A DNA stretch of 64,000 bases. Origin: Lacibacter luteus (GTDB lineage Bacteria > Bacteroidota > Bacteroidia > Chitinophagales > Chitinophagaceae). Positions 10,831 to 64,000 of this stretch are shown here, one piece after another; position 1 is the stretch's first letter; every line of letters begins with the position of its first letter. Where the stretch lies: NCBI RefSeq assembly GCF_004118265.1, contig NZ_SDHW01000001.1, positions 496,001 through 560,000 on the forward strand. Direction: 5' to 3'. A model generated the notes under the pieces. That model saw only the letters and a list, made by a program, of their open reading frames with translations, had not been told where the DNA came from and searched no databases. Both the position numbers and the translations under genes were made by a program.

Positions 10831-10884
10831 TTCTATTGAGCAACATCATAAACCTCATCAATAAACAAAGCTCCCCACGAAGCC

Positions 10885-10971: not shown

Positions 10972-11022
10972 CTTCGATTGTAGCATTTCCGTCTGCCGGT
11001 ATTCCTTTACTACAACACATCA

Positions 11023-12471: not shown

Positions 12472-12772
12472 ATTAATAATTCATGGCCTTATTTTTTTCC
12501 TAATGGTTACAGTCTCCTCCAACACTTTTTGTCATTCCGACGAAGGAGGAATCTGCCCACTGTTGTACTACTGCCCAACAGATCCCTCGTGCCTCGGGAT
12601 GACAAACAGAATGGAACTACATTGAAGTCTTCTGCATCCTTCGATAAAGAAACATTTTAAAAAACCTAAACCCATTTGCCACAGCGGAGTGTGGCGTTTC
12701 TCCCCTCCTGGGAGGTAACCAAGCATAGCGATGGTTAGGAACACAGTTCGGGGGTGGGTTTTCTCATGCTCC
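12472..12772. other. Intergenic region with dispersed repeats
   Basis: Contains the hairpin repeat at 12531-12604 and, at about 12699-12763, a CCCCTCCTGGGAGG-type segment followed by a GGGGGTGGG motif that recurs in varied form near 31276-31340, 36012-36050 and 42616-42645. No gene seen. Confidence 0.5.
12531..12604. repeat. Dispersed hairpin repeat (GTCATTCCGACGAAGG...CTCGGGATGAC), copy C
   Basis: GTCATTCCGA at the left pairs with TCGGGATGAC at the right, and GGAATCTG pairs loosely with CAGATCCC. Same family as 10689-10830 and 18229-18300. Confidence 0.65.
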
Positions 12773-46229: not shown

Positions 46230-47978
46230 TTACCATTTAAACGGTAAATACCATTCTTTTGCCATTAACTTCGAACGAGCTGCTGAAGCAGAAGACGATG
46301 AAATGCCTGATTTCATAAGTTTAACATAAACTCTATCAGCAAGAAAAGAAGGGTCATTGTTTCGAATCGCAATACGTAGTAAATCTGGCCAGCGTGTGCC
46401 CTCAAATGCATTCTCTAATGCACCTTCTTTAATTAAAGCACTTTCTATAGTCATCAAGCTGTCATTAGCAGGTACAGAAATGTTCACCAGATTCGCCCTC
46501 GCTCTTATACCAAGATTTCTACACCAGTCAGCACGATAATATGGAACGCCGGAATTACCACTGTTACGAGCGTCAATATTAAAGGGATAAGGTTCGTTCA
46601 ATGTGTTATGATAATTAGTAACATCATTCCCAGGAGCTGGATAGGTACCTGCAATTCCATTATTCAATAACCCACATGATAAACGATATTTACCTGAACG
46701 GTTCGCTGCTTCAATAAAACGTAGATGCAAATGTGTTTGACGAAATAAAAACCATTTCCCATTTTTTTGCAACGGATTTAATGCCGTACCGGTATTCCAT
46801 CCAATATAATTATACAAATACTTCATTGCCACCGGCTGGCCGCCGATTGTCATTGTACTTAATAATTTACGGGCATCATAAGGAATTGAACCTCCCTGAG
46901 CCGGGCGTTGAGTCTCCCCATCCCATAAATCAAATACTTGTTGAGAAGGACGAAGTAAATAGTTTCCACCAACCGGAGAGAATAATTTGATCATCGGATT
47001 TTGTGGATTAAACTTGTTATCGAACGGCATTACCCATAACCATTCATAGTTTACGTTGTCCGAACCAATGGGCGCTTCAAAAATCTGCCTCCATCCCACA
47101 GTATAATTTAAAGATGTCGCATCACCCGCACTTCCATATCGAATATTTTGTCCAGCCAAATCATCCTTCATACTTCCCATTTTATACATCCCAAAACGAA
47201 TCCTGTCATCGGCAGAGCCTGTATTTTCTTCCATTACTTCACGATAATACGTAGCAGCTTTTTGATAATTCCCTTTCCACAAGTACAAATCTCCTAATAG
47301 CGCTCGCTTATGTATGTAAAATTTCTGGGTTTGATAGGCATCGACTGAAATGTTTAAATTCGTTCCTGTAGGATAAATACCTTTAAACGGAATAGACTCT
47401 GTTGTACTGATCAAACTATCGAGCAATACATTAAACGGTAAACGTTTGAAATTAGCTGTATTCTTTACTTCATCTACATTTTTTAATGAACTTGTTACGT
47501 AAGGCACTTCACCAAAATGAATACCCAACTGTAAATAAAGAAACGAACGCAGAGATTTAATATCAGAAAAACGCTGGTTAAACTGATCTTCATTCATTTT
47601 CTTTTCCTGTACCATTACTTTAAAGTGCTCAAGCACATCGTTACAGTTCAGGATCAGTTCGTAGAATGCTTTAGGACTTGCATAAGGATTGTTTTCGGTA
47701 ACTGTATGTGTATTGATCTGGCGTAAAGCCTCGTTTGAATTTGCTGTAACATCCAGCAAATCGGCACGCAGTTCATTTAACACAACATATTGTTCAGCCA
47801 ATCCCATAAACTTTCCATAAATACCAATTACTGCAGCATCGGCATCGTAAACGTTTTGGTAAGCATTCGCTTCGTCTAACTGATCTTCCGGCTGAATGTC
47901 GAACACTTTTTTACAAGCCGACAAACTAACCAGCATCATCAGCACTAACACAAATTCGGGCAAATTAATTTTCTTCAT
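46230..47978 (-). CDS. susD: SusD/RagB-family glycan-binding lipoprotein (pair 3)
   Basis: A 582-residue outer-membrane lipoprotein, lipobox LSACKK with Cys22. The N-terminal start FDIQPEDQLDEANAYQNVYD and helical TPR-like scaffold (RALLGDLYLWKGNYQKAATYY near 220-240) are typical SusD, as is the C-terminal ALENAFEGTRWPDLLRIAIR segment. SusD caps the SusC barrel and delivers oligosaccharide. It follows SusC3 by 47 bp. The particular glycan cannot be read from sequence; pectin-derived oligomers are inferred from the adjacent enzymes. Confidence 0.93.
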   Translation of the reverse strand: MKKINLPEFVLVLMMLVSLSACKKVFDIQPEDQLDEANAYQNVYDADAAVIGIYGKFMGLAEQYVVLNELRADLLDVTANSNEALRQINTHTVTENNPYASPKAFYELILNCNDVLEHFKVMVQEKKMNEDQFNQRFSDIKSLRSFLYLQLGIHFGEVPYVTSSLKNVDEVKNTANFKRLPFNVLLDSLISTTESIPFKGIYPTGTNLNISVDAYQTQKFYIHKRALLGDLYLWKGNYQKAATYYREVMEENTGSADDRIRFGMYKMGSMKDDLAGQNIRYGSAGDATSLNYTVGWRQIFEAPIGSDNVNYEWLWVMPFDNKFNPQNPMIKLFSPVGGNYLLRPSQQVFDLWDGETQRPAQGGSIPYDARKLLSTMTIGGQPVAMKYLYNYIGWNTGTALNPLQKNGKWFLFRQTHLHLRFIEAANRSGKYRLSCGLLNNGIAGTYPAPGNDVTNYHNTLNEPYPFNIDARNSGNSGVPYYRADWCRNLGIRARANLVNISVPANDSLMTIESALIKEGALENAFEGTRWPDLLRIAIRNNDPSFLADRVYVKLMKSGISSSSASAARSKLMAKEWYLPFKW

Positions 47979-48025
47979 ATCTGAAGCAGCATTTTTTCGT
48001 TCAATAATTTAAACTTCAATCGTTT

Positions 48026-51000
48026 TTATAAACCAAGTCTTGCACCTAAAATAAACGAGCGGAATAACGGATCGAGTCCGGCATCGGTACCTTGAGCAAA
48101 CAAAGAAGGTGATGCACTGAATTCGGGATCGTAACCACTGTATTTCGTTAATGTAAAGAGATTGGTTCCGCTTACATAGATGGATGCGTTCTTAAAGAAT
48201 TTTTCTTTAAACGGAATATTGTATGTAAGCGATGCACTGCGCAGGCGGAAGTAAGAACCATCTTCGATCCAGCGTGTACTGAAACGGTTATTACCCATTG
48301 GGTCGCCATACGTAGCTTTCGGCATATTTGTTTTCTGACCTTCTGCTCTCCAGCGGTTTACTACACTGTTCAATTGATTTTCTACCGTGCTTGATGATTC
48401 AAGTTTGTAACGGAGATAATTAAACACATCATTTCCCTGCGAGAATGTAAACAACGCATCCAATGTAAAGCGGCCATATTCAAGACGGGTTGTTACACTT
48501 CCAAAAATATCCGGTGTAGGAATACCGATAACAGTTCTGTCTTTTTCATCAATGATGTTGTCTTTGTTTATATCAAGAAACTTAACATCGCCGGCATTAA
48601 AATAGCTATAAGAACCATCTGCATTTTTCTTTCTTAAACCATTTGCCGCCGGTTGCGTACTGTAAACACCCTGTGCTACATAACCGTAAAAAAGTGTTGA
48701 ACGAAGTCCCTGGCGTGTTAAGATTGTTGCACCTGCGTATTCTGTAGTAATTTCTTTATTAGGAACAGCTACCACACGGTTTTCGTTGTGGGCAATGGTA
48801 ACACCTATATCCCACTTCAATTTACGCTTATTGATGATGCGGACATTTGCACTTGCTTCAATACCTGTATTCAACATGCTTCCGCTGTTAGTAGCCACTT
48901 TGCTGAAACCTGAAGCAACGGGTACATCTTCGTACACCAGCATGTTTTCAGTTTTATTGCGATAGACATCTACACTAAAATTCAAACGCTCGTTCCATGT
49001 AGAAAGGTCTGCACCTGCATTAAACTTTTTATTGGTTTCCCACTGAATTGCAGGATTGGCAATACCACTGCGAACCAAGCCCTGCATACCTAACAGGTTT
49101 TGCGATGTATAGGTTTGGCGTGCAGTATAGTTACCAATATCATCGTTGCCGGTTAAACTAAAGCTTGCACGAAGTTTCAACAGATCGATGCTTGATGTTG
49201 CCATAAAACGTTCGGATGATAATAGCCATGCAGCAGCAACAGATGGCATGATGGCATAAGTAACACCGCCCATTGAAACACCGCCTTTTGCTTGCGAACC
49301 AAAACGTGATGAACCATCCATTGCAGCATTAACAGATAAGAAGAGTTTGTCTTTATAACCGTAATCGAAATTAAAATAAGTGTTCATCCAGTTCCACTCA
49401 CCTATTCCGCCACCTGTTTGGCGTAAAGCATTTACACCATTCTGTACACTGATGAGCTCGTCTGTTGCCGAGTTATAACCCAACGTAAAATCCTGTTCTG
49501 CACGGTTTTGCTGATAACGCAAACCTAAACGGGATGCGATACTGTGACGAAGCTGATACGTACGTTTAAATTCAATACGTGTATCAGAATAAACAGAGAA
49601 CAAACGGCGAACCTGTGTACCTAAACGACTGTCGGCAATAGCGTTGCTTAATGTATCGTCTGCTACACCTTTACGTGGCACAAAAATATTTTCACGGTTT
49701 TTATCGTACACAATACCAAGTAACGAAGAGGCTGATAAGTATTTATTGAAATCGTACTTAAAGGTGTAAGAACCCATAAAACGATAGTAGCGGTTATACG
49801 CCTGCATATTTTCAATCAATACCGATGGATTGCTGATACCGAGAATATCTGTATCCTCAAAGTTTGGTGACAGCACCCCTTTCTCGTTCATTTCGTTTGG
49901 AGCTAAGAAAGGCGACTTGGTTAAAGCTGTGTACAACGCACCGGTTTTATTAACTACTCCCTGGTATTTAAGATCGGCCTGGTTGTAAGTAAACGCAAGG
50001 CTTGCAACACCTGTGAATTTTTTAGAAAAATTAAACTGTGCGTTAAAACGGGTGTTGTAACGTGTAAGACCTGTATTGTTAATTGTACCTGCATTACGGC
50101 TAAAGCCAACACTTAATGCATATGTAGCAATATTATCACCACCGGTTACTTTTAAATAGTAATTCTGGCTTACGCTGTTACGTAAAACATTTTTTTGCCA
50201 GTTGGTGTTGTTGTGATAACGATAATACGCCGCATTGCTGCTTGTATCGTCGTTCATGTAAGGCATTGCTGCAATTTCAGCAGCACTTAAGCCTTTGCTT
50301 TGCAGAATATCGCCAAGATAAGAACGGTAAGCAGAAGCGTTCATTACATTCAAAGGCTGTGGTGCCTGGTTGTAACTTGTGTATACACCAAAATCGATAC
50401 TGGTTGCTTCCTTTCTGGCACGTGCGGTGGTAATGATGATGGCACCATTTGCACCTTTCGTTCCGTAAATAGAAGATGCATCTTTAATTACCGTGTAGTT
50501 ATCAATATCGTGAATATTGATCAAGGATAACGGGTTGGTATAATTATTTGCAATGATGCTGTTTCCATAATCATTCATATCATACACGATACCATCAACA
50601 ACAACAAGTGGCGCATTTGTACTGTACAACGAATTGTAACCACGCAAAAACATATTAGCGCCAATGCCCGGTGTACCCGAACGACGGATAACATTTAAAC
50701 CGGCTGCCTTACCCTGCAAAGCAGCATCACCTGTTTCAAACGGACGTCCCCAATCGCTGTTGGCATTAAATGCTGTTACAGCACCTGTAATATTCCGTTT
50801 GCGCATTGTACCAAATGGCATCATCACATCTTCCTGGAAGGTTGTTGCCGACTCTGAAAGCAGTTCTGCTGTTACGGCATTCTTCCCTTTTAACGAAACC
50901 TGTTTCGATGCAAATCCCTCACCACTGATCTCTATATCGGTATAATAAGAAGGAACTTTTAATGTAAACTCGCCATCATCATCGGTAATAGCAGCAGAAA

Positions 51001-51208
51001 AATTCTTTACTTCAACACGTATACCTGCCAAAGGCTTTTTACCTGCAGCATCGGTAACCTTGCCGGTAATTACAATTTTTTGGGCAGCGGGTAAACTGTC
51101 TTTTTTTGTTGTATTTGTTTGCTGGGCAACAACTTCCTGCGGCGAGCTTAACGCTGCTGCAACAAGCATTGCTATAACCAGACTATGTACATTCTTTTTT
51201 ATCATCAC
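48026..51208 (-). CDS. susC: SusC/RagA TonB-dependent outer-membrane transporter (pair 3)
   Basis: A 1060-residue protein. Signal peptide (about 1-29), carboxypeptidase-D regulatory-like domain (VITGKVTDAAGKKPLAGIRV, about 45-120), plug domain (about 130-255, with GTPGIGANMFLRGYNSLYST and YGTKGANGAIIITTAR), and a beta-barrel ending in RSFILGARLGL. The barrel extracts energy from TonB and imports oligosaccharides with SusD. It has no N-terminal STN signalling domain, so it does not itself drive an anti-sigma/ECF switch. It starts 24 bp after the FAS1 gene at 51233, in one operon with both FAS1 genes and SusD2. Confidence 0.94.
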   Translation of the reverse strand: MMIKKNVHSLVIAMLVAAALSSPQEVVAQQTNTTKKDSLPAAQKIVITGKVTDAAGKKPLAGIRVEVKNFSAAITDDDGEFTLKVPSYYTDIEISGEGFASKQVSLKGKNAVTAELLSESATTFQEDVMMPFGTMRKRNITGAVTAFNANSDWGRPFETGDAALQGKAAGLNVIRRSGTPGIGANMFLRGYNSLYSTNAPLVVVDGIVYDMNDYGNSIIANNYTNPLSLINIHDIDNYTVIKDASSIYGTKGANGAIIITTARARKEATSIDFGVYTSYNQAPQPLNVMNASAYRSYLGDILQSKGLSAAEIAAMPYMNDDTSSNAAYYRYHNNTNWQKNVLRNSVSQNYYLKVTGGDNIATYALSVGFSRNAGTINNTGLTRYNTRFNAQFNFSKKFTGVASLAFTYNQADLKYQGVVNKTGALYTALTKSPFLAPNEMNEKGVLSPNFEDTDILGISNPSVLIENMQAYNRYYRFMGSYTFKYDFNKYLSASSLLGIVYDKNRENIFVPRKGVADDTLSNAIADSRLGTQVRRLFSVYSDTRIEFKRTYQLRHSIASRLGLRYQQNRAEQDFTLGYNSATDELISVQNGVNALRQTGGGIGEWNWMNTYFNFDYGYKDKLFLSVNAAMDGSSRFGSQAKGGVSMGGVTYAIMPSVAAAWLLSSERFMATSSIDLLKLRASFSLTGNDDIGNYTARQTYTSQNLLGMQGLVRSGIANPAIQWETNKKFNAGADLSTWNERLNFSVDVYRNKTENMLVYEDVPVASGFSKVATNSGSMLNTGIEASANVRIINKRKLKWDIGVTIAHNENRVVAVPNKEITTEYAGATILTRQGLRSTLFYGYVAQGVYSTQPAANGLRKKNADGSYSYFNAGDVKFLDINKDNIIDEKDRTVIGIPTPDIFGSVTTRLEYGRFTLDALFTFSQGNDVFNYLRYKLESSSTVENQLNSVVNRWRAEGQKTNMPKATYGDPMGNNRFSTRWIEDGSYFRLRSASLTYNIPFKEKFFKNASIYVSGTNLFTLTKYSGYDPEFSASPSLFAQGTDAGLDPLFRSFILGARLGL

Positions 51209-51232
51209 AACTTTCTTTTAATGGTAGTTCGT

Positions 51233-52681
51233 TTATAAACTTGGCACCAGCTTAATATAATCGCATGAAAGCGGGTTAACAGCTGCTGTTGTACTATTAG
51301 CTCCCACCAAATACACATTGAGCACAGGCGAATAAAATGTGAGCGGAATTTCGCCAACATATACTTCGCTGTAAACATTTGGATTCACAACAGCAGACAG
51401 CGCCGGAAGTACTGCACCTGTACCCCAACCCAACCTTTGTGTATAAGCTGCGGTTTGAAAATCGTTCAATGCTACCCAGTAAGCTTTGTATTTAATAGAA
51501 GGCACTTCAGGAACTTCGTAACGAAGCCAAAAATTAGATACACCATGATTGAATACGTTTACATCGGTAAAATCCAATCCTGTAAGCGGATTAAACCTGT
51601 CTCGGAAATAAGTATTACTTCTCCTGTTTACACTTTGCGCAATATAACTTTCGGCCTGAATGGTAATTGTTTTAAACTTACTTGCGGGCAATACATTCAT
51701 CTGGCTCATTACGTACACAATACCATTACTTGTTTTAATGGTACGTACGATAGCCGATTTATTAACCGGAAGTTTTGTTCCAAACTTTGATACAACCGTA
51801 TCGGGAATGGAGTTGGGTTGATAAACTGTATCTACTGCAAAATCTTTTACAACATTCCAGCTTGTAACAAGTGTATTACTGTCTGCAGTATTGGTTACGA
51901 AATAGGGCATGTACTTTGTTATTTCTGCATCCCATGCTGCATCTGTAAGCATGAATAGTGTAAACTGTTTTTTCTCAACTTTCAGATCGTGTACACGATT
52001 CCAGAAAAGATTGGTAAATACCGAATCTGTTCCTGCCTGGTAAATCGGTTCACCTGTTACAGGGTTAATGCTAGTAACAACCGCATTTGTTGGATCAAAT
52101 ACTTTACGGAAAAGCGAAAGCATAAATGTTTTTTGCTTTACAGGTGCGTTGCTGCTGTTATTTAAAAACTCCCAGCAATTATCCAAAGCAGGCAGTGCCT
52201 TATCTATAACCTGCAGCAAACCGTTACCTGCATATTTATCCGCTGTAGTAATGGTTGCATCTTCAATTTTTTTGCCTTGCATGTTATTGTACTTATCGTT
52301 CAACATACCAATACGTGTAGGCTGTACAATTTCGCTGGTACGGTATTGTTGCAATGCAATGTGGTTACCAATAAAGCTTTTGAGTTTTACCGCATCGTTT
52401 ACAATTGCAGGATCGAGTGAAGAAAGTGCACTGTTAACAGGCGCAAAAACGGTGTAATTGCGTGATGAACTAATAACTTTATCGTAACCCGTCTTCACCA
52501 GGTATTCTTTAAAAGTACTTAACTGGGGATTGGCGTTTACAAGATCCAGTACTGTCATTTGCAACGCAGGATCCGTAATATCGTTTCGTTCGTCTTTTAC
52601 TTTACTGCAGCTGCTTAAAAGCTGCAAAGAAAGTAACCCCGACACCAGTAAGAGAGAGGTATGCCTGATCTTCATGTTCAT
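51233..52681 (-). CDS. FAS1-domain lipoprotein with C-terminal beta-sandwich (FAS-C)
   Basis: A 482-residue lipoprotein, lipobox LSSCSK with Cys25. Two FAS1 (fasciclin) domains cover about 38-165 (FKEYLVKTGYDKVISSSRNY, FAPVNSAL, NGLLQVIDKALP) and about 170-330 (TLFMLTDAAW, SNGIVYVMSQMNVLP). Residues about 335-482 form a beta-rich domain opening with ITIQAESYIAQS and closing with LSCDYIKLVPSL, a pattern of galactose-binding-like carbohydrate-binding modules. FAS1 domains are adhesion folds; the C-terminal domain suggests glycan binding at the cell surface. It lies between FAS-B and SusC3, in a position where SusE/F-like proteins are not found, and may take their role. Confidence 0.82.
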   Translation of the reverse strand: MNMKIRHTSLLLVSGLLSLQLLSSCSKVKDERNDITDPALQMTVLDLVNANPQLSTFKEYLVKTGYDKVISSSRNYTVFAPVNSALSSLDPAIVNDAVKLKSFIGNHIALQQYRTSEIVQPTRIGMLNDKYNNMQGKKIEDATITTADKYAGNGLLQVIDKALPALDNCWEFLNNSSNAPVKQKTFMLSLFRKVFDPTNAVVTSINPVTGEPIYQAGTDSVFTNLFWNRVHDLKVEKKQFTLFMLTDAAWDAEITKYMPYFVTNTADSNTLVTSWNVVKDFAVDTVYQPNSIPDTVVSKFGTKLPVNKSAIVRTIKTSNGIVYVMSQMNVLPASKFKTITIQAESYIAQSVNRRSNTYFRDRFNPLTGLDFTDVNVFNHGVSNFWLRYEVPEVPSIKYKAYWVALNDFQTAAYTQRLGWGTGAVLPALSAVVNPNVYSEVYVGEIPLTFYSPVLNVYLVGANSTTAAVNPLSCDYIKLVPSL

Positions 52682-52711
52682 TATATTTTTCAGTACTTCT
52701 GTCGTTAGTTA

Positions 52712-54403
52712 TTATTGATAAATCATTGTGCCATCCGGACGGAAACGTGGCAACACCTGATCCTGATCGATCGGAATAAAATGGATCATATCAAGGTTGT
52801 TATTGTTCTGCGTTCCTGTTAATGCTGTAATACGGATGAGTTGTTGTTTGGTTGTTGTAAACTCAATTACACCTACCTGGCGTGCAGCCCAAAGATTGCT
52901 TGTGTTTTCGGTATAACGTTTCCAACCGATTGCTTCCAGTTCAGAGTCGGTACCTGCAGGACGTGTATCAGTAAAGTTCATTGTACGTTGCATAATGGTG
53001 CCGTTTACACTTACCTGGCAAAGCATGTTGGAGCTGCTCGATTGTTTTTGCTGACGGTAACAAACCCATACTTTGTATTTACCTTTTACAATGGGCGGCG
53101 TACGCATTTCCCACCATGGCGGACGGTTAGGTAAACCGAGCGGCAGCATATTGATATCTGCATTATAAGCATAGTTGGTAATACTGCTTGCTGCAGAATA
53201 AGTATAAGTAAGTGTGTTTGTACTTGCTAACGGACCCCAACCCCAGTAATGATCTTTAATTGGATTATCCGCTTCTGTTGCACGGGTAAAATTGTAGTTC
53301 GCTTTTTTGTAATAAGCTGGCAGCTTTTTAATTTCATCGAAAGAAGACACATCCCAATACAAAGCCGTTGGTTTACGGAATTTCACCATAAAGTGCGCAG
53401 CTGCATCGTGCCATACGCCATTGGTTGCAGCAACATCGCTCTTTGCACGTGTCAGCACCACACCTTTTTCCAATACACCATTAAACTCATCCTGGTTAAG
53501 TAATACCTGTTGATCGATCAACTTAATACTTACCACTTCCTGAGGTTGTAATGTTTCGTGTGTTGGCGTTGAAATAATATCGCCAAGGAATTTCAAACCT
53601 TGCGAAATATGATAAGCTACATAAATGTGCAGGCTATCGTTGTCGTTTGCAGGATTACCTGTTTTAGAATATTTCGCTTTTAACGCAGCATATGTTGCAA
53701 AACCGCTATCGGCTAACGCTTTATTACTTTCTGCAAATACTGTCATCCAACGTTTCGATGTGTCGGCATCCACAGCATTCAGTTTCGCATAATAGCCTGT
53801 TTCCTTTAATGCCTGTACAAAAATGGAATACTCAGGTTTTTCTTCCAACTGTTGTGCAATGGTTTTAACAGCAGGTTTCAGCACATTGTCGATTACATGA
53901 ATGACACCGTTACCAACACGTACGTTAGAACGAAGAACTGCACCTTGTCTGTTAATAAGATAACTTGATACACCGCTTACATTGGCAACCGATGTTACGA
54001 GGTACTGACCGTACATGGTAACAACGGGCAATTTACCATCTGTAAACGAGTTGGTATAAACCGTATCGCTCAACAAATGCAAACGCACCATATCTTTTAA
54101 TGTGTTGATATCGGCAGCTTCAACAGAAGCAGCACCAAGACCGGCCAGGTATGTTTTTACACCACTGTTTGTTGGTGCAAAACAAGTGTAGGCTCCATAT
54201 GCATTGAGGAATGCAGCGTTGCCTGTTCTTTCCAGAATCTGGCGAAAGAGTGAAAACGAATCAAGATTTTTATCGAGATAGCCTACAATATTTACGTCAC
54301 CCGTTGTAGATTCCTCGATCTTGATTTTTCTGCAGCCCGGGGCCGACATAAGCAGAGCTATAACTGCAACCGAAGCTAAGGCAAGAACAATGTTTCTTTT
54401 CAT
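52712..54403 (-). CDS. FAS1-domain lipoprotein with C-terminal beta-sandwich (FAS-B)
   Basis: A 563-residue lipoprotein, lipobox SAPGCRK with Cys24. Two FAS1 domains cover about 42-185 (FRQILERTGNAAFLNAYGAY, FAPTNSGV, NGVIHVIDNVLKP) and about 187-350 (YSIFVQALKETGYYAKL). The C-terminal domain (about 400-563) contains VKGKYKVWVCYRQQKQ and ends LDMIHFIPIDQDQ, again like a galactose-binding-like module. FAS-B follows SusD2 by 14 bp and precedes FAS-C by 30 bp, so all are in one operon. Both FAS-B and FAS-C share the two-FAS1-plus-sandwich layout and are probably paralogues. Confidence 0.82.
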   Translation of the reverse strand: MKRNIVLALASVAVIALLMSAPGCRKIKIEESTTGDVNIVGYLDKNLDSFSLFRQILERTGNAAFLNAYGAYTCFAPTNSGVKTYLAGLGAASVEAADINTLKDMVRLHLLSDTVYTNSFTDGKLPVVTMYGQYLVTSVANVSGVSSYLINRQGAVLRSNVRVGNGVIHVIDNVLKPAVKTIAQQLEEKPEYSIFVQALKETGYYAKLNAVDADTSKRWMTVFAESNKALADSGFATYAALKAKYSKTGNPANDNDSLHIYVAYHISQGLKFLGDIISTPTHETLQPQEVVSIKLIDQQVLLNQDEFNGVLEKGVVLTRAKSDVAATNGVWHDAAAHFMVKFRKPTALYWDVSSFDEIKKLPAYYKKANYNFTRATEADNPIKDHYWGWGPLASTNTLTYTYSAASSITNYAYNADINMLPLGLPNRPPWWEMRTPPIVKGKYKVWVCYRQQKQSSSSNMLCQVSVNGTIMQRTMNFTDTRPAGTDSELEAIGWKRYTENTSNLWAARQVGVIEFTTTKQQLIRITALTGTQNNNNLDMIHFIPIDQDQVLPRFRPDGTMIYQ

Positions 54404-54417
54404 AATGCAGGTTTCAA

Positions 54418-55974: not shown

Positions 55975-55984
55975 GCGTTTGTAA

Positions 55985-58900
55985 TTAGAATGCTGCTACT
56001 AAACCAATTGTAATATTTTTTGCCGGCGGCGTCATTGAATAATCGTAAGATACACGGAACGGATCGGAACCACGGAATGATACTTCGGGATCCTGACCGA
56101 GATAGTTGGTGAATGTGAAAAGATTTTCTGCGGTTACATAAAAGCTTGCTGATTTCATTTTCATTTTCTTCAGCGCTTTCTTATCGAAATTATAACGCAG
56201 TGTAACAGTTCTGAAACGGATATACGATGCATCTTCAACATAACGGTCGCTGCCAAGCCAGTTATAACCACCTGCAATTAATGCACGTGGCATATCAGTT
56301 ACATCGCCTTCTTTTCTCCAACGGCTTAACACAGCTGTACTTTGGTTATCGAAACCGTACATGTTGGTTGTATTCATTTTGGTGCCGTTAATTACATCGT
56401 AACCCCAACGGAAGCTGAAGAACGATGTTAAGCGGAAATTCTTCCATGTAACTGATGGACCAAAACCTCCCGATAATTTAGGATTACTGTTACCGAGATA
56501 AACAACATCCATGTAGTTAATGTTACCATCATGGTTAATGTCTTCATACATCGCATCACCCGCCTGGAAAATATAATCTGTTTGCGGATAGTTAAAGCGC
56601 ATGTAAATTGTTTGACCATTAGGTCCTACAATTGGATTTCCTTTTGCATCTGTTGCAACAGTTGCAGATTTGTTTGCGTAAACTCCTTTGTACTTGTAAC
56701 CATAGAACGAACCAAACGGATTATTGATCTGCAACAGACGGAGATACTCACCATTCTTCGTTACATCACCTCTTTGGTTTGGATAGAATTCAGAAATTTC
56801 ACGAATTACGTTTTGGTTGGCCGAAATATTAAAGTCGAAACCAATCGTTAATGTTTTTGTTTTATAAGGCTGCGTCCATACCGCCAGTTCCCAACCCTGG
56901 TTATCCATTGTACCAACATTCATGAACAAGGAATTGTAGCCCGTGTAAGAAGCAATCTGTAAACCATCCATAAAGAGGTCTTTAGTACGGTTACGGTAAA
57001 TTTCACCATCCATACGCACACGACCTTTAAAGATGCTTACGTTGTAACCGATGTTACTTCCACGCAATGTTTGCCAACGCAGATTTTTCAATTCCATACG
57101 TGATGAAATGATACCTGCCTGATCGAGATAAGTATAATCGTAGGTACTGTATGTGTTGTAAAATAAATAATCGTAACGAGGAACCTCACCCGCAATACCA
57201 TAGCTTGCACGTAAACTCAAATCATCAAGCCACTTTGCATCTTTCAGGAATTTTTCTTCTGAAATGCGCCAGCGTGCCGAAATAGAAGGGAATACACCAT
57301 AGCGATAGTTTGGACCAAAACGTGAATTACCATCTGCACGTATCGTAGCATTGATAAGGTACTTATCGTTAAACCCATATTGTGCGCCAACCAATGCACC
57401 AACCGAACGGTTTTGTGTTTGTCCGGAAACTGCACGCAAATCGCTGTTTTGTGTACGTGATGCAATAGAAGGATCAACCAACAATGAAGATGCCGTATTC
57501 GACGACATTACTTCCTGGTAAACTGCAGTATAATCGTTTGTAAGAATGTTCATGTACGCCTGTACATTGTGTTTCTCCGATTTTAGCTGCGGCGTATAAA
57601 TCAAACTTGTTTTTGTACCAACACTAAAAGCATCAATATCGCCATCGTATGCACGGTTAACTACAGTTTCTGTGTTAGGACGACCGGTAGCGATTTGTGG
57701 AAGAAAACTGTTGTTCTTTGTATTATTAATATCGAACTGTACATCGAAAGTTGCTTTCAGCACACGTTTGATGATATCGTAATCAACCTGGAAACGTGGA
57801 ATGATACGATCGCCCAATACACCATACTTTGCTTTGTCGGCCATTGCAACAGGATTGTACACACGGCTGTATTGACCTTGTACGTTTGCGGCAGGCGAAA
57901 AATAGTTAGTGGTAATATCGCCGTTTGCATCGTATTCAAACACACTCATGTTTGGCATCTTAATGTAAGCCATACCACGAATAGAAGATTCGCTGCTTGA
58001 GAGATAATGACGAACCTGGTTGGAGTGTGTGTACGAGAAACTGGTAAAGAATTTGATTTTTTCTGATACGGTATAATCAAGATTGATACGTGTATTGATA
58101 CGTTGTAAACCTGTACCAATGGTAATACCTTTTTGATCGAACCAACCAACCGATGCAAAGTATTTTGCTTTTTCACCACCACCGGTTAAGCTTACAGTGT
58201 GATCCTGGATATAACCTGTTCTCGAAATGGCATCGATCCAGTTTGTATTGTTACTGTAATTATGATACCAGTATGGATCGTTGGGATCGTAGTTAAACTC
58301 ACGGTTAACGGTTGTGTTCAACGTAGTACCAATACGGTTCATAAACGCTTCAGGAATCAATGAAGAATACTGATCGCCATTTAATAACGGAATAGCCTTG
58401 GGCACCAAAGAAACCGAACCTTTAAATGTATAGTTAATGGTAGGTTTACCAATACTGCCACGCTTGGTTGTAATTACCAATACACCGTTTGCAGCTTTGG
58501 CGCCCCATATAGCAGTTGCAGCAGCATCTTTCAACACAGTGATATCTTTAATATCGGCAGGCGAAATATTTAATAACTGTGCATAGCCTTGCTCATCGGC
58601 AGTACCAAAATTAAAGTCACTTGGAATTTCTGTTTCATAAGGCATACCATCCAAAACAATCATTGGTATACCGGTAGAGTTGATTGATGATACACCACGA
58701 ATACGAATGTTCATAGCAGCACCGGGATCGCCACTTGAAGCTGTAATATCAACACCACTTAAACGACCTTGCAATGCCTGATCGATACTTGGCGCCTGCA
58801 TCTCTTCCATTTCTTTTGCGTTGATGCGTGACACAGCGGTTGTAAGATTTTTCTCCGGTACATTGATCATACCGTTTGAAGATGACGGGCGTGCAATTAC

Positions 58901-59245
58901 CACAACTTCACCTAAATCGGCCTGCGAATCTTCTAATGAAAAGTTGATGGATGTACGTCCGTTAATGCGTTGCGTTACGCTTTTGTAACCGATATACGAA
59001 AGTGAAATTCTGTTTTTGCTGTTTACATTCTTCAAAACAAAAAAACCTTCAATATCGGTTTGTGTACCACGTACAATCCGGTTATCTGCATCCAGTTCCG
59101 ATACCGATACACCTTGCAGCGGCTTACCGTCTTTATCGGTTACTTTACCACGCAGTACATCCTGTGCAAATACCGATACAGCCACAAGAAGAAATAATGC
59201 AGTGAAGGAAAACAGTTTCGTTAATTTATTCCACATACTATGCAT
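55985..59245 (-). CDS. susC: SusC/RagA TonB-dependent outer-membrane transporter (pair 2)
   Basis: A 1086-residue protein. The signal peptide ends near residue 28 (an alternative ATG at 59236 gives a slightly shorter one). Carboxypeptidase-D regulatory-like domain: DVLRGKVTDKDGKPLQGVSV (about 29-48). Plug: QALQGRLSGVDITASSGDPG and TAIWGAKAANGVLVITTKRG (about 155-270). The barrel ends KNITIGLVAAF. There is no STN domain. It pairs with SusD2 and sits 17 bp after FAS-A, an unusual FAS1-SusC-SusD order. Substrate is inferred to be a pectin-derived oligomer. Confidence 0.95.
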   Translation of the reverse strand: MHSMWNKLTKLFSFTALFLLVAVSVFAQDVLRGKVTDKDGKPLQGVSVSELDADNRIVRGTQTDIEGFFVLKNVNSKNRISLSYIGYKSVTQRINGRTSINFSLEDSQADLGEVVVIARPSSSNGMINVPEKNLTTAVSRINAKEMEEMQAPSIDQALQGRLSGVDITASSGDPGAAMNIRIRGVSSINSTGIPMIVLDGMPYETEIPSDFNFGTADEQGYAQLLNISPADIKDITVLKDAAATAIWGAKAANGVLVITTKRGSIGKPTINYTFKGSVSLVPKAIPLLNGDQYSSLIPEAFMNRIGTTLNTTVNREFNYDPNDPYWYHNYSNNTNWIDAISRTGYIQDHTVSLTGGGEKAKYFASVGWFDQKGITIGTGLQRINTRINLDYTVSEKIKFFTSFSYTHSNQVRHYLSSSESSIRGMAYIKMPNMSVFEYDANGDITTNYFSPAANVQGQYSRVYNPVAMADKAKYGVLGDRIIPRFQVDYDIIKRVLKATFDVQFDINNTKNNSFLPQIATGRPNTETVVNRAYDGDIDAFSVGTKTSLIYTPQLKSEKHNVQAYMNILTNDYTAVYQEVMSSNTASSLLVDPSIASRTQNSDLRAVSGQTQNRSVGALVGAQYGFNDKYLINATIRADGNSRFGPNYRYGVFPSISARWRISEEKFLKDAKWLDDLSLRASYGIAGEVPRYDYLFYNTYSTYDYTYLDQAGIISSRMELKNLRWQTLRGSNIGYNVSIFKGRVRMDGEIYRNRTKDLFMDGLQIASYTGYNSLFMNVGTMDNQGWELAVWTQPYKTKTLTIGFDFNISANQNVIREISEFYPNQRGDVTKNGEYLRLLQINNPFGSFYGYKYKGVYANKSATVATDAKGNPIVGPNGQTIYMRFNYPQTDYIFQAGDAMYEDINHDGNINYMDVVYLGNSNPKLSGGFGPSVTWKNFRLTSFFSFRWGYDVINGTKMNTTNMYGFDNQSTAVLSRWRKEGDVTDMPRALIAGGYNWLGSDRYVEDASYIRFRTVTLRYNFDKKALKKMKMKSASFYVTAENLFTFTNYLGQDPEVSFRGSDPFRVSYDYSMTPPAKNITIGLVAAF

Positions 59246-59262
59246 TGTTTGGGTAATGAGTT

Positions 59263-61506
59263 TTATTTATAGCGGAGGTAGTTATCGATCAAATGAATCG
59301 TACACCTTGTGCTTAATTGGTTACTTGATGCAGTTACTACAGCGCCCGATCTGCTCTTCATATCGTTTAAGGTGATGCTGTTTGGCGTGCTGTTGTTCAC
59401 GAAGATGGTTGAAGGATCGCCATTCGGAAACTTATATAAAGTCTCGAACGTGCCACTCTCCTGCCCGTCTGTTGCAATATTTTTCTTGTTAAGAATATGA
59501 TAGTAGATAAATGCATCAACCTGTTCACGTTCCGCAAGGGTTAAGCCTGTGTACTTTGGTACTTTGTTTGGTGCAGTTCCAGTACCCGGTAAATCGCCTG
59601 CATTTACAGCAGCAAGAATAGCTGTATTGCTTGGTATAAAGAACGTATAGAACGAACCCGATGCTACCTGTACAATTTCGCCTGTTGTTGTATTAAAAAT
59701 TGGTGACGCCTTCAGGTAATTCCAGAAATAATTATACGGCGAAGTTGTTGGTGTACCCAATGTTTCAATGTGTTTACCAATTATTTTTTCGCTGAATTCC
59801 AGAATACGATCGATATAATAAACGGTACCGTTCTTCGCTGTTTTTTTGTTAACAACAGTTGCCTGGTTACCTGCATCGTAGTTACCTGCAGCAGCAACTT
59901 TGTTGTTATCAAATTTTATAAACTCTCCCGAGTTAGACATAGCAACACCTGCAGTTGTAAGTGAAGTAATGTCTCTGCCCGGTACTACATGCATATTTAA
60001 AATACGTTGCAAACGCACCAATGCAGATGAACCTGTTAATTGTGTACCACCAGCCGGAGGCGTGTAACGCCATTGTTCATTTATATTATTGCTTACAGTT
60101 GCATCAGCATAATAACCGGCAGCATTAAATGCAGTGTTGCTGATGAGGAACATGGTGTACTTCTGATAAATATTTGAGATCTGAAATTTAAGATCAAGAT
60201 TCAGTAAGCTTGTCATGATCGAATATTTCGGATCGAGATAAGCTTTACCATACACACTGCTGAACACGTTTGCTTCCTGTACTTTATTGGTACCGTAAAA
60301 CACCCCGTTACTCAACACCTGCTTGTCTACAACATCTGTTGCTGAATTAAAGCGTGCTTCTTCGCCAACAGAGTTGTAAGTAGTGGCAAACTTCGAAGGC
60401 CAAACCACTGTACGCCACATATGCGCATTCATAAAATCATAAATTACATTAATCGGTAATGCATCCACACTTGAATAGTGCTCGAGCAATACGGTATTGA
60501 TGTAATTAAGTAATGCCGCATTTTCAGGAACAAACATGGTGTAACTGTCCGACTGACCATCATTATCCTGCAATTTCAAAAAGTTTTCGTTATTGGGCGA
60601 AAATGCCAAACTGTTATTGTACACTTTAGTAAACACATCTGCCGCAGTACCGTAAATGGCTTTATAGTTTTGCGATACAGTTTGGTTTAACACATACTGT
60701 ACAAGAAACTTATCCATGAGTTTTTTAAACTCGCTGTAACGAGGGTTGGTACCAATGTACTGATCGATGCTGGGCAACACGGTAATAACCCTGTCTATCA
60801 CATGGATAACGCCGTTTTCAGCGGCAATATCTTTTTCTGTAACCTTTGCATGCGCAACGTTAAAACCTGCGTAAGTGGAGTTTGGATAGAAGTAATTGTA
60901 ATCAGCAGCCGTTAACGATTTTCCGCTCATATAAGCAGTTTCAAAAACAGGAACATACTTGTTGTTGTTATCTGCATCCACATAGTATAACGCACCTGAA
61001 TTATTACGGTTTGATGCAATTGCTTTGATATCCTGGCCACTGAGGTTTTTAGTTTCGTAGATGCCTGTATAATTAGCTGTACGTCTGCGGAACGAAGCCC
61101 CTTCTACCCAACCAAGATTACTTTGATAATCGGAAATTCGCTCCTGTTTAAATGCATTATACACAAGGCTGTAAGTAACGATCTTACGTGCGGTTGAAGA
61201 GTCGATTGCATCTACATTCGCAATACTGTTCTGTGTAAGATAAACAGTAACAGCAGAGTCGTGTGGTGCAAAAATTGTCCAGTAACCTGCAGCAGACAGC
61301 GTTTGTTTATAACCGGCCTTGTCAATCAGTTTTAAAAACTGTGTAAAGCGGCCTTTAGCCTGCAATTGCTGATAAATGGGTTGTTCAAGAGTGTCGGGCC
61401 TTTGATAAAATTCATCGAATTTCTTTTGGCATGCAAACGTTATAGCTGTAAGCGCAAAAAAAAGGCAAAACTGTTTGATAAGCTTAAACATAAATCTACA
61501 GTTCAT
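59263..61506 (-). CDS. Four-FAS1-domain lipoprotein (FAS-A)
   Basis: A 747-residue lipoprotein, lipobox ITFACQKK with Cys26 (an alternative ATG at 61491 keeps the same lipobox). Four degenerate FAS1 domains are visible, each ending in a strand resembling the FAS1 H2 box: NGVIHVIDRVITVLP (about 231-245), NGVFYGTNKV, NGTVYYIDRILEF and CTIHLIDNYLRY at the C-terminus. The N-terminal domain has FTQFLKLIDKAGYKQTL and WTIFAPHDSAV. Unlike FAS-B/FAS-C it has no C-terminal sandwich. It lies 17 bp before SusC2 and is preceded by a 356-bp gap with a promoter and terminator, so it begins its operon. A surface adhesion or glycan-binding role is inferred. Confidence 0.82.
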   Translation of the reverse strand: MNCRFMFKLIKQFCLFFALTAITFACQKKFDEFYQRPDTLEQPIYQQLQAKGRFTQFLKLIDKAGYKQTLSAAGYWTIFAPHDSAVTVYLTQNSIANVDAIDSSTARKIVTYSLVYNAFKQERISDYQSNLGWVEGASFRRRTANYTGIYETKNLSGQDIKAIASNRNNSGALYYVDADNNNKYVPVFETAYMSGKSLTAADYNYFYPNSTYAGFNVAHAKVTEKDIAAENGVIHVIDRVITVLPSIDQYIGTNPRYSEFKKLMDKFLVQYVLNQTVSQNYKAIYGTAADVFTKVYNNSLAFSPNNENFLKLQDNDGQSDSYTMFVPENAALLNYINTVLLEHYSSVDALPINVIYDFMNAHMWRTVVWPSKFATTYNSVGEEARFNSATDVVDKQVLSNGVFYGTNKVQEANVFSSVYGKAYLDPKYSIMTSLLNLDLKFQISNIYQKYTMFLISNTAFNAAGYYADATVSNNINEQWRYTPPAGGTQLTGSSALVRLQRILNMHVVPGRDITSLTTAGVAMSNSGEFIKFDNNKVAAAGNYDAGNQATVVNKKTAKNGTVYYIDRILEFSEKIIGKHIETLGTPTTSPYNYFWNYLKASPIFNTTTGEIVQVASGSFYTFFIPSNTAILAAVNAGDLPGTGTAPNKVPKYTGLTLAEREQVDAFIYYHILNKKNIATDGQESGTFETLYKFPNGDPSTIFVNNSTPNSITLNDMKSRSGAVVTASSNQLSTRCTIHLIDNYLRYK

Positions 61507-61693
61507 TTAATAAATCAAATGTGATCGATGGAAAATAAATACGATTCGTACGTGACTGGAAGAAATAAATAACCGGAGAATGACCTTTACGTCAAAGAAA
61601 GGATCTGTGGCAAAACAGTTTTTTTCTACAAAGCATAGCAGTTTATGCAATTGGGTCATACAGCAGCAATCTTTTTCAATCAGCAGTTATTGG

Positions 61694-61724
61694 CAAATAT
61701 TATATTACCGTTAACAGCACCAAA
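61694..61724 (-). promoter_or_regulatory. Candidate promoter of the FAS-A/SusC2/SusD2 operon
   Basis: On the minus strand: TTTG (61724-61721), a 19-nt spacer, and AATATTTG (61701-61694), 7 of 8 positions of the TAnnTTTG -7 box. The predicted leader is about 180 nt. Confidence 0.4.
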
Positions 61725-61813
61725 TTATTGCACACACTGCATTTAACCGTCATGTGCCATCCTGAGTAATTCCTGCTTTTTACGCAATCGATGTCGAAAA
61801 CGGATTTCGATAC

Positions 61814-61844
61814 AAAAAGGGCTGCCTGTTGGGCAGCCCTTTTT
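61814..61844 (-). terminator. Terminator downstream of SusD1
   Basis: Perfect 13-bp stem AAAAAGGGCTGCC/GGCAGCCCTTTTT with a 5-nt loop, 18 bp after the SusD1 stop. With A and T runs on both sides it should work in both directions. It separates the first SusC/D pair from the FAS-A operon. Confidence 0.88.
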
Positions 61845-61862
61845 GATTATTTTAAGTCGTCC

Positions 61863-63818
61863 TTAGTAACCGGGATTTTGCATTGCCTGCTTTTGTGCGG
61901 CAGTTAAAGCTAAACCTCCCATTTGTATACCATCAAGGAATGTTTGCGGTATAGGGCGTAATAAATGTTTATCCTGGATATTGGGTGCAGCATCGGGGTT
62001 AAATGCTTTTGCACGGGCAATTAATGTTTTTGTACGAGACAAATCCTGCCAGCGTAAATATTCGCCTGCAAGCTCACGTGAGCGTTCGTTCAACAGGAAA
62101 CAAAGCATCCTGTCGTATGCAGCAGAATAGCCCAACAAGGTAATAATGTATTCATCTGCTGCAGGTAATGCAGCAACGTTTGTAACTGTTAAACTTGCAG
62201 AAGCTGCGGTTGTAACCGGAATATTGTTTGATTCGTAGTAAGAGTTTTCAGGAAAGAATGACGGAGGAATTGATTGCGGAACACTGCTGGGCGCTGCACC
62301 ACCATCATAATATACCGAGCGATTTTCGCCGTTTGCATACTGTGCTCTTACACGCAGAGGATTAATATATACTAATGCATCAGCATAGGTACCAACACCG
62401 GCTTTTGCCTGGCGAATTTTTGCTTCTGCAGCAATCAGGTATGTTTCAGCAGAACGTGCCAATGTAATATCACGTAAACCTCTTACATCGTTAAAGCCGG
62501 CTGTACGTGAACCATCCATAAACTTACTCAGCGATGGAAAACGACGGGTATCGTTCCAGCCGCCATCTGCTGTAACACCATTTTTATACGCTACATAAAC
62601 ATGCGGAATGGTTTTTCCCGTGCCGCTGTAAGTAACAGAATTGTTTAACAGGTTTGCAGAAAAACGAGTATCGCCGGGCTGATTAATTACATACATAATA
62701 CCCAAATCACCCTGTACATAACCACTGGTTGGTGCATTAGCATTTACCTTATGCTTTGTTCTGAAAGTTTTCCAGAAACGTGAATCGTTTTGCATATCGT
62801 AAATGCGATACATAAAGAATGTTGGAGATAAACGGCTGAATGGACGATCACCACTTAAATCACGCTGCATTTGAGCGATATCTTCATAACGTGATACATA
62901 ATACAAATGCTGTGTATTTTGGCCGCTTGCCGTTAAATCCGATGTAAACTGAGCTGACAAAATAACTTCACGCAGATTTTCATTTGCACTATTTGGAGAT
63001 GTATAACGCCATAGATCTCCGTAGTTTGGAGCCAGTGCATGATTTGCAATTACGGCATCACACAAAGGTATAATCGCTGCTAAATCGGCTGCTTTTGTTG
63101 ATCCATTCCACGAATCATTAATTTCACTTGTACGACTCAAATAAGCTTTTGCAAGAAAATGTGCTGCAGCATCTTTTGTTATTCTTGCCGGAGAGCCGGT
63201 ATTCGTTAATAAATTATAAGCCTGTGTAAAATCAGCAATAATTAAATCGTACACTTCTTTAGGATTAGCACGGGTAAATTCCAGGTTTACAGTTGTAATT
63301 GGTGAAGTTTGTAAAGGAACTGCACCATACTGGCTTACTAAACGTAAATAGTTATAAGCTCTTAAAAAGTAACCTTCGCCTAAAGCTGTTTTCTTAATTG
63401 CATCAGCTGTAGATGCACTGGCTGTTGCATTTTGAATGATAATGTTAGCTTGACCAATACCAATGTATAAATTATCCCACTGTGCTTCAGCAGCCACCGT
63501 ATTACCGTTGTTTGGTGTTACGAATGAGCCAAAAGTGTTACCATAAGAATTATACATACCGTTTGATGGGTCTCCACCTACACGAAACTCATCTGTACCG
63601 TAACACATATTGGAAAAGGCCATTTCGCCGTTAAACTGAGTGGCAAATACCTGGTGATATGCACCATTAACCAACTGCTGAATACCGGCATCTGTTTTAT
63701 AAAACTCCAGATCTCTGGATGTTTTTAATGTTTCATTTAAAAAACTCTTTTTACAAGATGTAGCCAGCGTCATTACCAGAACGCTAACCAATGCTATATT
63801 TAATATTCTATTTTTCAT
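61863..63818 (-). CDS. susD: SusD/RagB-family glycan-binding lipoprotein (pair 1)
   Basis: A 651-residue lipoprotein, lipobox ATSCKK with Cys22. N-terminal FLNETLKTSRDLEFYKTDAG, the ALGEGYFLRAYNYLRLVSQY helix (about 155-175), AETYLIAAEAKIRQAKAGVG (about 460-480) and the C-terminal ERSRELAGEYLRWQDLSRTK are SusD-like. At 651 residues it is longer than pairs 2 and 3. It follows the SusC1 stop by 20 bp and is followed by a strong terminator, so the first pair ends its own transcription unit. Confidence 0.93.
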   Translation of the reverse strand: MKNRILNIALVSVLVMTLATSCKKSFLNETLKTSRDLEFYKTDAGIQQLVNGAYHQVFATQFNGEMAFSNMCYGTDEFRVGGDPSNGMYNSYGNTFGSFVTPNNGNTVAAEAQWDNLYIGIGQANIIIQNATASASTADAIKKTALGEGYFLRAYNYLRLVSQYGAVPLQTSPITTVNLEFTRANPKEVYDLIIADFTQAYNLLTNTGSPARITKDAAAHFLAKAYLSRTSEINDSWNGSTKAADLAAIIPLCDAVIANHALAPNYGDLWRYTSPNSANENLREVILSAQFTSDLTASGQNTQHLYYVSRYEDIAQMQRDLSGDRPFSRLSPTFFMYRIYDMQNDSRFWKTFRTKHKVNANAPTSGYVQGDLGIMYVINQPGDTRFSANLLNNSVTYSGTGKTIPHVYVAYKNGVTADGGWNDTRRFPSLSKFMDGSRTAGFNDVRGLRDITLARSAETYLIAAEAKIRQAKAGVGTYADALVYINPLRVRAQYANGENRSVYYDGGAAPSSVPQSIPPSFFPENSYYESNNIPVTTAASASLTVTNVAALPAADEYIITLLGYSAAYDRMLCFLLNERSRELAGEYLRWQDLSRTKTLIARAKAFNPDAAPNIQDKHLLRPIPQTFLDGIQMGGLALTAAQKQAMQNPGY

Positions 63819-63838
63819 TTTGTTGAAAATTTAATGAT

Positions 63839-64000
63839 CTAGAAACCTGCGTTAATACCTACAGTAAATCCACGATTTGAAAACATCGAAACCGCATCCA
63901 TATCCATAAACTTAATTTGTGAATACAGCATTGCCGGGTTAGTAGCCTGGAAGTACACACGTAGGTTTTGCATATGCATCGATTTGATCATTTTACTATT
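63839..64000 (-). CDS. susC: SusC/RagA TonB-dependent transporter (pair 1), C-terminal fragment
   Basis: Only the last 53 codons are in the window. They read MIKSMHMQNLRVYFQATNPA and MFSNRGFTVGINAGF, ending in an aromatic residue as outer-membrane barrel proteins do. Together with the SusD 20 bp downstream this identifies a SusC. The rest lies beyond the right edge. Confidence 0.8.
   Translation of the reverse strand, partial: NSKMIKSMHMQNLRVYFQATNPAMLYSQIKFMDMDAVSMFSNRGFTVGINAGF

Follow-up and report, generated by a model that had tools for sequence, protein, structure and literature searches.

We analysed a 64,000-nucleotide stretch of the Lacibacter luteus genome (NCBI RefSeq assembly GCF_004118265.1, contig NZ_SDHW01000001.1, positions 496,001 to 560,000; hereafter the window), which carries on its minus strand a seven-gene unit interleaving three proteins of the fasciclin (FAS1) family with two SusC/SusD pairs. 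The host genome is 5.07 Mb in size. The unit reads FASA-SusC2-SusD2-FASB-FASC-SusC3-SusD3 from 61506 to 46230, with intergenic gaps of 17, 10, 14, 30, 24 and 47 bp (5' to 3' in the coding direction). The initial annotation had described the order FAS1-SusC-SusD-FAS1-FAS1-SusC-SusD on one strand with gaps of 10-47 bp, and the open reading frames, coordinates and Pfam and NCBIfam families confirmed it. The genes are as follows:

FASA: 61506-59263, minus strand; lipoprotein of 747 amino acids (aa), about four FAS1 domains; opens the conserved cassette
SusC2: 59245-55985, minus strand; SusC/RagA-type protein with N-terminal extension, TonB box GEVVVIA, plug and barrel
SusD2: 55974-54418, minus strand; SusD-type lid lipoprotein (PF07980 6.1e-33, PF14322 2.5e-14)
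FASB: 54403-52712, minus strand; lipoprotein of 563 aa, two FAS1 domains and a predicted C-terminal sandwich resembling carbohydrate-binding module (CBM) family 35
FASC: 52681-51233, minus strand; lipoprotein of 482 aa, two FAS1 domains (the second weak) and a predicted CBM6-like C-terminal sandwich
SusC3: 51208-48026, minus strand; SusC paralogue with N-terminal extension and plug, and a degenerate TonB-box segment, QEDVMMPFGT
SusD3: 47978-46230, minus strand; divergent SusD-type lipoprotein; closes the conserved cassette

SusC2 and SusC3 scored 741 and 652 bits against TIGR04056 (cut-off 368), with Plug E-values of 1.9e-19 and 2.2e-11, respectively. SusD3 lay barely above the cut-offs of its families (PF14322, 2.7e-07, 31.5 bits versus 27; PF07980, 5.8e-06, 26.6 bits versus 23.1). 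Both pairs can be classed as SusCD, as each consists of a SusC above the cut-off and a SusD-family lipoprotein gene directly after it. FASA, FASB and FASC matched Fasciclin PF02469 with E-values of 2.6e-33, 1.4e-24 and 1.4e-19 and scores of 115.3, 87.1 and 70.9 bits, compared with a curated cut-off of 22, and all three are members of the FAS1 family. No SusE or SusF family match from Pfam or NCBIfam was found in the ten locus proteins scanned, in agreement with the initial annotation, which had seen no SusE/SusF-like gene.

Conservation and joint inheritance of the cassette

We searched a four-sequence FASB alignment against 84,980 species genomes and obtained 73 loci, whose hosts included Chitinophagaceae, Flavobacterium, Sphingobacterium, Mucilaginibacter, Arcicella, Chryseosolibacter, Bacteroides and Phocaeicola. 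The loci were labelled in six frames with FAS1, SusC and SusD profiles, a middle stretch of more than 2,300 bp being counted as two FAS genes. The complete FAS-C-D-FAS-FAS-C-D order was present in 60 of the 73 loci (L087 and L184 were added to the complete loci by hand from their labels), and the other 13 were cut by contig ends and were consistent as far as they reached, so that no locus among the 73 contradicted the order. Loci found through FASB show the setting of FASB; they do not give the frequency with which FAS1 genes at large are linked to SusC/D. The cassette proteins of Lacibacter cauensis (locus L045) share 77-94% identity with the seven in the window, which marks the host as Lacibacter-like within the Chitinophagaceae.

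Two further sets were drawn from FAS1 matches. The first was the family of one Bacteroides hit (genome G463, the source of L115). We presume it to be GTDB Bacteroidaceae and call it the Bacteroides-centred family below. PF02469 matches occurred in 186 of its 251 genomes, and 37 FAS1 places hand-picked from the stronger PF02469 rows among the matches listed comprised 31 complete cassettes, 2 that were contig-cut and agreed with the order, and 4 without SusC/D. The second set consisted of 33 places at class and phylum level, selected by similarity to FASB (all matches of one draw and a hand-picked 20 of another). Eleven of these were seven-gene cassettes, 2 were six-gene forms, 3 had a C-D-F order, 2 had FAS1 beside a SusC-like match only, and 15 had no SusC/D on the FAS1 strand, one of the 15 having a SusC/D pair on the other strand. 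Over all sets, the complete order was found at 102 of 143 loci, three of the 102 being second views of loci already counted. The seven-gene order is kept across soil, water and gut bacteria of one phylum, Bacteroidota. The module postulated in the initial annotation is therefore real and far wider than one window could show, and the locus survey rules out a chance neighbourhood of FAS1 and SusC/D.

Full-length FASB matches were found in 7 of 296 phylum genomes (8 copies), a count made with a profile that may miss divergent forms. One genome, G277, holds four cassettes (L035, L037, L038 and L044). The Lacibacter genome has 53 SusC genes above the cut-off, and 5 of its 9 PF02469 genes directly abut a SusC or SusD gene, three of the five being those of the present cassette. 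In the two six-gene forms (L036 and L122), a single FAS gene stands in the middle and the second SusC is shorter (919 and 933 aa). At L109, L173, L176 and L177, SusC is split across frames, as are the FAS genes of L109, which may reflect either errors in the draft assemblies or copies in decay. The Bacteroides-centred family also has FAS1 proteins, of 686-737 aa, that are not part of a cassette (L185, L196, L205 and L206). L185 neighbours a GH20 (glycoside hydrolase family 20) gene, L196 a GH43 gene and a hybrid two-component regulator, and L206 a GH127 gene, with a dockerin-bearing protein nearby.

The seven genes are also inherited together. Median gaps were 14-31 bp in 80 non-redundant seven-gene cassettes. 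Pairwise distances of the seven proteins correlated at 0.93-0.98 over these 80 cassettes, and thus gave no sign of swapped parts among the genes. We built a SusC tree by a quick method from 139 sequences (54 SusC2 and 54 SusC3, from 54 of 82 cassettes, and 31 other SusC of the Lacibacter genome). SusC2 formed a single clade with support 99 and SusC3 a single clade with support 100, and the two grouped together, apart from the 31 others, with support 82. SusC3 was somewhat more diverged than SusC2 (mean p-distance 0.562 versus 0.497), and it was present in all 60 loci of the FASB scan with a contig covering the whole cassette. The tree and the correlated distances fit one old duplication of SusC, followed by joint descent and transfer.

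SusC2 and SusC3 at the TonB-box site

In SusC proteins, the TonB box follows the N-terminal extension and precedes the plug. For the levan SusC of Bacteroides thetaiotaomicron, deletion or mutation of the box (VDEVVV) is reported to cause a growth defect like that of a SusD deletion (PMC7782687). We compared the site in 82 SusC2 and 82 SusC3 sequences with that of the 31 other SusC of the Lacibacter genome; three loci seen twice (L068, L112 and L120) were dropped. A strict TonB-box motif near the aligned site was present in 65/82 SusC2, 26/31 other SusC and only 3/82 SusC3. A loose motif was present in 77/82 SusC2, 30/31 other SusC and 14/82 SusC3, the rates in shuffled sequences being 33, 28 and 16%, respectively. 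With a four-column profile of the box, derived from the other SusC, 28/31 other SusC, 53/82 SusC2 and 4/82 SusC3 exceeded the 95% level of shuffled sequences, and SusC2 outscored SusC3 in 77 of 82 loci. A seven-column profile placed 29/31, 53/82 and 3/82, respectively, above the 95% null level; its low rating of SusC2 is due in part to the last two columns (GY), which differ in SusC2. A proline lay near the site in 62/82 SusC3, as opposed to 11/82 SusC2 and 1/31 other SusC. When a second set of 13 cassettes from the Bacteroides-centred family was scored with the motifs unchanged, leaving out SusC genes split across frames (L173, L176 and L177), the strict motif was found in 9 SusC2 versus 1 SusC3, and the loose motif in 10 versus 5.

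The other parts of SusC3 are kept. Among 20 sequences of each SusC chosen from the 82, the plug was found in 20/20 SusC2 and 20/20 SusC3, and the N-terminal extension domain PF13715 in 20/20 SusC2 and 19/20 SusC3. Judged by sequence motif, SusC2 thus has a TonB box and SusC3 is without a recognisable one, while retaining its plug. Since TonB boxes vary in sequence, the claim is limited to the loss of a recognisable box and does not extend to the loss of power. The two paralogues are, on this comparison, not equivalent, which we find the most unusual feature of the cassette and which was absent from the initial annotation.

The main rival explanation starts from the same data. SusC2-SusD2 and SusC3-SusD3 could both be conventional SusCD homodimers, each powered on its own and served by separate FAS1 glycan-binding proteins, which import two different products of one polysaccharide; SusC3 would then have a diverged TonB box or use another TonB. 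The kept plug and N-terminal domain are consistent with this, and where the box would be, many SusC3 retain a residual stretch, for example EDVMMPFGT or YDxAxLPxG. TonB-box sequences are described as variable and flexible (PMC11658791), and the two SusC/D pairs of one polysaccharide utilization locus (PUL) were proposed to target different oligosaccharides (PMC6298971). However, the strict motif is missing in 79/82 SusC3, a proline lies near the site far more often in SusC3 than in SusC2 or the other SusC, and several SusC3 of the Bacteroides-centred family have nothing box-like visible in the aligned stretch. Furthermore, the joint inheritance of seven genes exceeds what two separable transporters would need. 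We consider two independent homodimers unlikely, while giving them more weight than the other alternatives below.

The fasciclin lipoproteins and the flanking genes

PF02469 matched FASA over four stretches, and our own FAS1 profile gave five pieces along residues 48-747, two of which are probably parts of the first domain. With the same profile, FASB showed FAS1 pieces at 44-180 and 186-338, and FASC showed one at 48-168 and a weak second one at 187-335. A DUF5108 match in FASB was below the cut-off. The putative lipidation cysteine was invariant in the alignments of FASB (Cys24, 24/24) and FASC (Cys25, 23/23), and FASA has a cysteine after a lipobox-like stretch. A simple lipobox pattern was found in 61/80 FASA, 42/80 FASB and 68/80 FASC, counts that are probably lowered by miscalled starts.

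AlphaFold2 models were computed from alignments of 24 (FASB) and 23 (FASC) sequences and had mean predicted local distance difference test (pLDDT) values of 85.8 and 88.8, respectively. Foldseek matched both models to TGFBIp and periostin, and also to Fasciclin I. Among the 50 matches listed, the FASB model also hit the CBM35 structures 2w1w (TM score 0.65 by target length) and 2w47, the latter a complex with an unsaturated galacturonic acid, and the FASC model hit the agarase CBM6 structures 2cdp (TM score up to 0.78) and 2cdo, as well as CBM35. The Foldseek tables give no aligned ranges, and the strands of the models place the CBM-like match in the strand-rich C-terminal parts, probably at about residues 385-544 of FASB and 339-481 of FASC. 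Because xylanase, GH115 and Cry-protein sandwiches match as well, the Foldseek evidence concerns fold and not glycan binding. The carbohydrate-binding-like sandwiches that the initial annotation had assigned to two of the three FAS1 proteins were thus recovered by prediction. FASB and FASC resemble proteins in the SusE/SusF role in being lipoproteins beside susC/D with a carbohydrate-binding fold, as predicted, and their CBM6/35-like folds would fit surface glycan binding.

The FAS1 fold is a known adhesion fold, which the FAS proteins share with TGFBIp, periostin and Fasciclin I, their best structural matches. Unlike these, the FAS proteins are bacterial lipoproteins in a nutrient-uptake operon, two of them with predicted CBM-like ends. 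As an alternative, the FAS proteins could be adhesins by which the cell attaches to insoluble material of plants or hosts, their link to the importers being no more than co-expression. High transcription of a FAS1 gene in a Bacteroidota symbiont has been read as a sign of cell adhesion (PMC10199937). However, the FAS genes are interleaved with SusC and SusD in a fixed order and inherited together with them, and FASB and FASC end in predicted CBM-like folds. An adhesin role alone seems to us very unlikely.

A further comparison is with SusE/SusF and the DUF1735-type surface glycan-binding proteins (SGBPs), which are likewise lipoproteins beside susC/D with an N-terminal spacer and a C-terminal carbohydrate-binding fold (PMC11216935). 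The cassette differs from them in that FAS1 domains stand in place of Ig-like spacers, no SusE/F match is present, and FAS genes also stand before susC. Conversely, DUF1735 proteins sit at susE/F positions and were proposed to be spacers in the same source, and the cassette might be an ordinary PUL in which FAS1 is another such spacer module of SusE/F-like proteins and the box of SusC3 was lost by neutral decay. The somewhat greater divergence of SusC3 would agree with this. Neutral decay, however, leaves the kept plug and N-terminal domain unexplained, and it is at odds with the presence of SusC3 in every fully covered locus of the FASB scan. We therefore rate an ordinary PUL as improbable, although less so than the adhesin explanation.

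Outside the unit, the window contains two further features of interest:

SusD1: 63818-61863, minus strand; PF07980 1.7e-27; belongs to a separate, ordinary SusC/D pair
Enzyme stretch: 4773-45342, minus strand; GH105/88, GDSL esterase, GH39, GH43 (three), polysaccharide lyase (PL) 22, GH106, GH29, PL9, GH78, GH28, SASA esterase and GH115 by Pfam, with other genes between

SusD1 lies upstream of the unit and is separated from FASA by 356 bp, and its SusC partner (beyond the window, at L009 1842-4946) carries a TonB box. A SusC-SusD pair was labelled at the place of SusD1 in 4 of the 73 FASB loci (L045, L046, L048 and L050), all close relatives. The initial annotation had counted three SusC/D pairs spaced by FAS1 genes; two of them stand within the unit, and the first falls outside it. 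Directly after SusD3, a 206-aa cysteine-rich, lipoprotein-like protein without a Pfam family is encoded at 45570-46190, followed by the GH105/88 gene. The enzymes downstream of the cassette fit a set for pectin or rhamnogalacturonan-I (RG-I).

We scanned the flanks of cassettes from the FASB scan and the draws (50 of 51 downstream and 46 of 50 upstream proteins were aligned). Not included were L104, the extra FASB-like gene in L105, and the genes of L046, L048 and L050 that correspond to SusD1. The 50 downstream proteins included GDSL esterases (7), GH88/105 (5), GH106 (4), GH115 (4), SASA (4), PL11 (3) and GH28 (2), and the 46 upstream proteins included GDSL (8), FGGY kinases (3) and PL11 (2). 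For the Bacteroides-centred family, we covered up to about 18 kb from each of eight cassettes and scanned 20 hand-picked proteins of the 93 listed in the flanks. Genome G634 had GH92 (two of three proteins scanned) and GH38 directly upstream of the cassette on the same strand, and a PNGase F gene downstream, past two opposite-strand genes. G704 had two GH43 proteins downstream, one of them also with GH5, and a GH31. GH106-, GH105- and GH28-like proteins and a SASA esterase surrounded the cassette of G565 (contig C2), a GH115-like protein was near that of G673, and an alpha-amylase near that of G648. For the other three cassettes, the scanned neighbours comprised a peptidase in G621, housekeeping enzymes in G592 and, in G658, CotH or housekeeping proteins.

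As the flanking enzymes differ by locus (RG-I, xylan-like and N-glycan types), the cassette is not tied to pectin. A function in pectin use only was rejected, since GH92/GH38 or GH43/GH5/GH31 genes, of N-glycan and xylan type, lie near other copies. From its gene neighbourhoods, the cassette looks like a substrate-agnostic chassis.

The cassette as a proposed uptake machine

The levan and dextran utilisomes of B. thetaiotaomicron (SusC, SusD, glycoside hydrolase and SGBP; PMC7618045) resemble the cassette in their SusC/D core, in the surface lipoproteins encoded beside it and in multi-part glycan capture. In the levan utilisome, a single kind each of SusC, SusD, surface hydrolase and SGBP is described as present in two copies (PMC7618045). 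In contrast, the cassette has two non-equivalent SusC/D pairs, three FAS1 lipoproteins and no enzyme inside the unit. A beta-mannan PUL of Muricauda likewise has two SusC/D pairs in one locus, although no fixed cassette, FAS1 protein or box-less SusC is described in the consulted passages of that paper (PMC6298971); in the cassette, the two SusC would stem from one old duplication and one is without a box. The word fasciclin is absent from the main text of the utilisome paper (PMC7618045). For a PUL of Gramella, a FAS1 gene is given in the legend of a figure (PMC4891872). Among the open-access literature matches listed, none described the module. We regard the cassette as probably a variant of the known SusCD system rather than a new kind.

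We propose, with a probability of roughly 0.6, that the products of all seven genes make up a single uptake machine of the outer membrane. It would be a lopsided utilisome, composed of a powered SusC2-SusD2, an unpowered SusC3-SusD3 and the FAS1/CBM lipoproteins. FASA, FASB and FASC would be surface lipoproteins that take the place of SusE/SusF-type glycan-binding proteins, capturing glycan and docking on SusC/D. Rigid docking and spacing may be the task of their FAS1 domains, about eight in total, while the polysaccharide may be held by FASB and FASC through their CBM6/35-like ends. SusC2-SusD2 would be the importer, powered through the TonB box. SusC3-SusD3 would have arisen by duplication and kept barrel, plug and N-terminal domain, but no recognisable TonB box. 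Its most likely role would be that of a partner without power, holding substrate or lipoproteins next to SusC2. A hetero-complex of both pairs perhaps replaces the homodimer of the known utilisomes. Different loci would couple this chassis with different enzymes, such as the RG-I set in the Lacibacter window. The interpretation given in the initial annotation is, as a whole, partly supported.

Several observations weigh against such a machine. SusC2 itself is weaker at the box than ordinary SusC: 17/82 SusC2 are without the strict motif, and the share above the 95% null is 53/82, compared with 29/31 and 28/31 for other SusC in the two profiles. The loose motif persists in 14/82 SusC3, about the shuffled rate, and in 5/13 SusC3 of the second set. 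Moreover, the strict motif was composed after the alignment had been viewed, the relatives in the motif counts are not independent, and the 31 control SusC were taken from 51 others above the cut-off, mostly the best-scoring ones. The fold matches of the FAS models extend to the xylanase, GH115 and Cry-protein sandwiches mentioned above. Two Mucilaginibacter loci (L099, 3' end; L105, 19024-20736) have an extra FASB-like gene shortly downstream of the cassette. Finally, in the neighbourhood survey envisaged in the initial annotation, for which rarity of FAS1 genes next to SusC would count against a module, cassette-type FAS1 genes are not rarely beside SusC in related genomes, although other FAS1 genes are often unlinked to SusC/D (15/33 class and phylum places and 4/37 Bacteroides-centred places).

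A more specific form of the lopsided utilisome is tentative, with odds that we put somewhat below even. SusC2-SusD2 and SusC3-SusD3 might be obligate partners in a hetero-complex with only one barrel powered by TonB. The second barrel would be a fixed receiver or scaffold without power, on which the FAS1/CBM lipoproteins pass long, branched glycans to the powered barrel. If this is true, asymmetric SusC pairs would be a general design, as three further tandem SusC/D loci of the Lacibacter genome (G000) also pair a box-less with a boxed SusC, judged by eye. Two of them, L188 (G000:C11:310001-326000; SusC at 9658-12456 and 4875-7949) and L189 (G000:C11:1140001-1156000; SusC at 9266-12151 and 4337-7459), have the tandem order SusC-SusD-SusC-SusD and no FAS1; at both, the first SusC has neither N-terminal extension nor visible TonB box and the second has both. 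The third, L028 (G000:C11:1528001-1546000), reads SusC-SusD-FAS1-(350 aa)-SusC-SusD-FAS1-like, with no visible TonB box in the first SusC (11061-14066) and a box in the second (4392-7610). The first SusC of L188, L189 and L028 match the family profile only from positions 84, 86 and 107, respectively, so that the N-terminal extension is missing in all three. A link of box-less SusC to the β-barrel assembly (BAM) machinery, as in the BAM canopy of Flavobacterium johnsoniae, was dropped, since BamG is described as FadL-like and not as a SusC (PMC12611786).

If the proposal holds, the homodimeric SusCD utilisome model would not fit a large class of Bacteroidota PULs from the gut, soil and freshwater, which would use about eight FAS1 docking domains and a SusC that TonB apparently cannot power. 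The sequence rule FAS-C-D-FAS-FAS-C-D can be used to find further loci. The cassette would then be relevant to the question of why SusCD transporters form dimers, and to the handling of very complex glycans such as RG-I, N-glycans and branched xylans.

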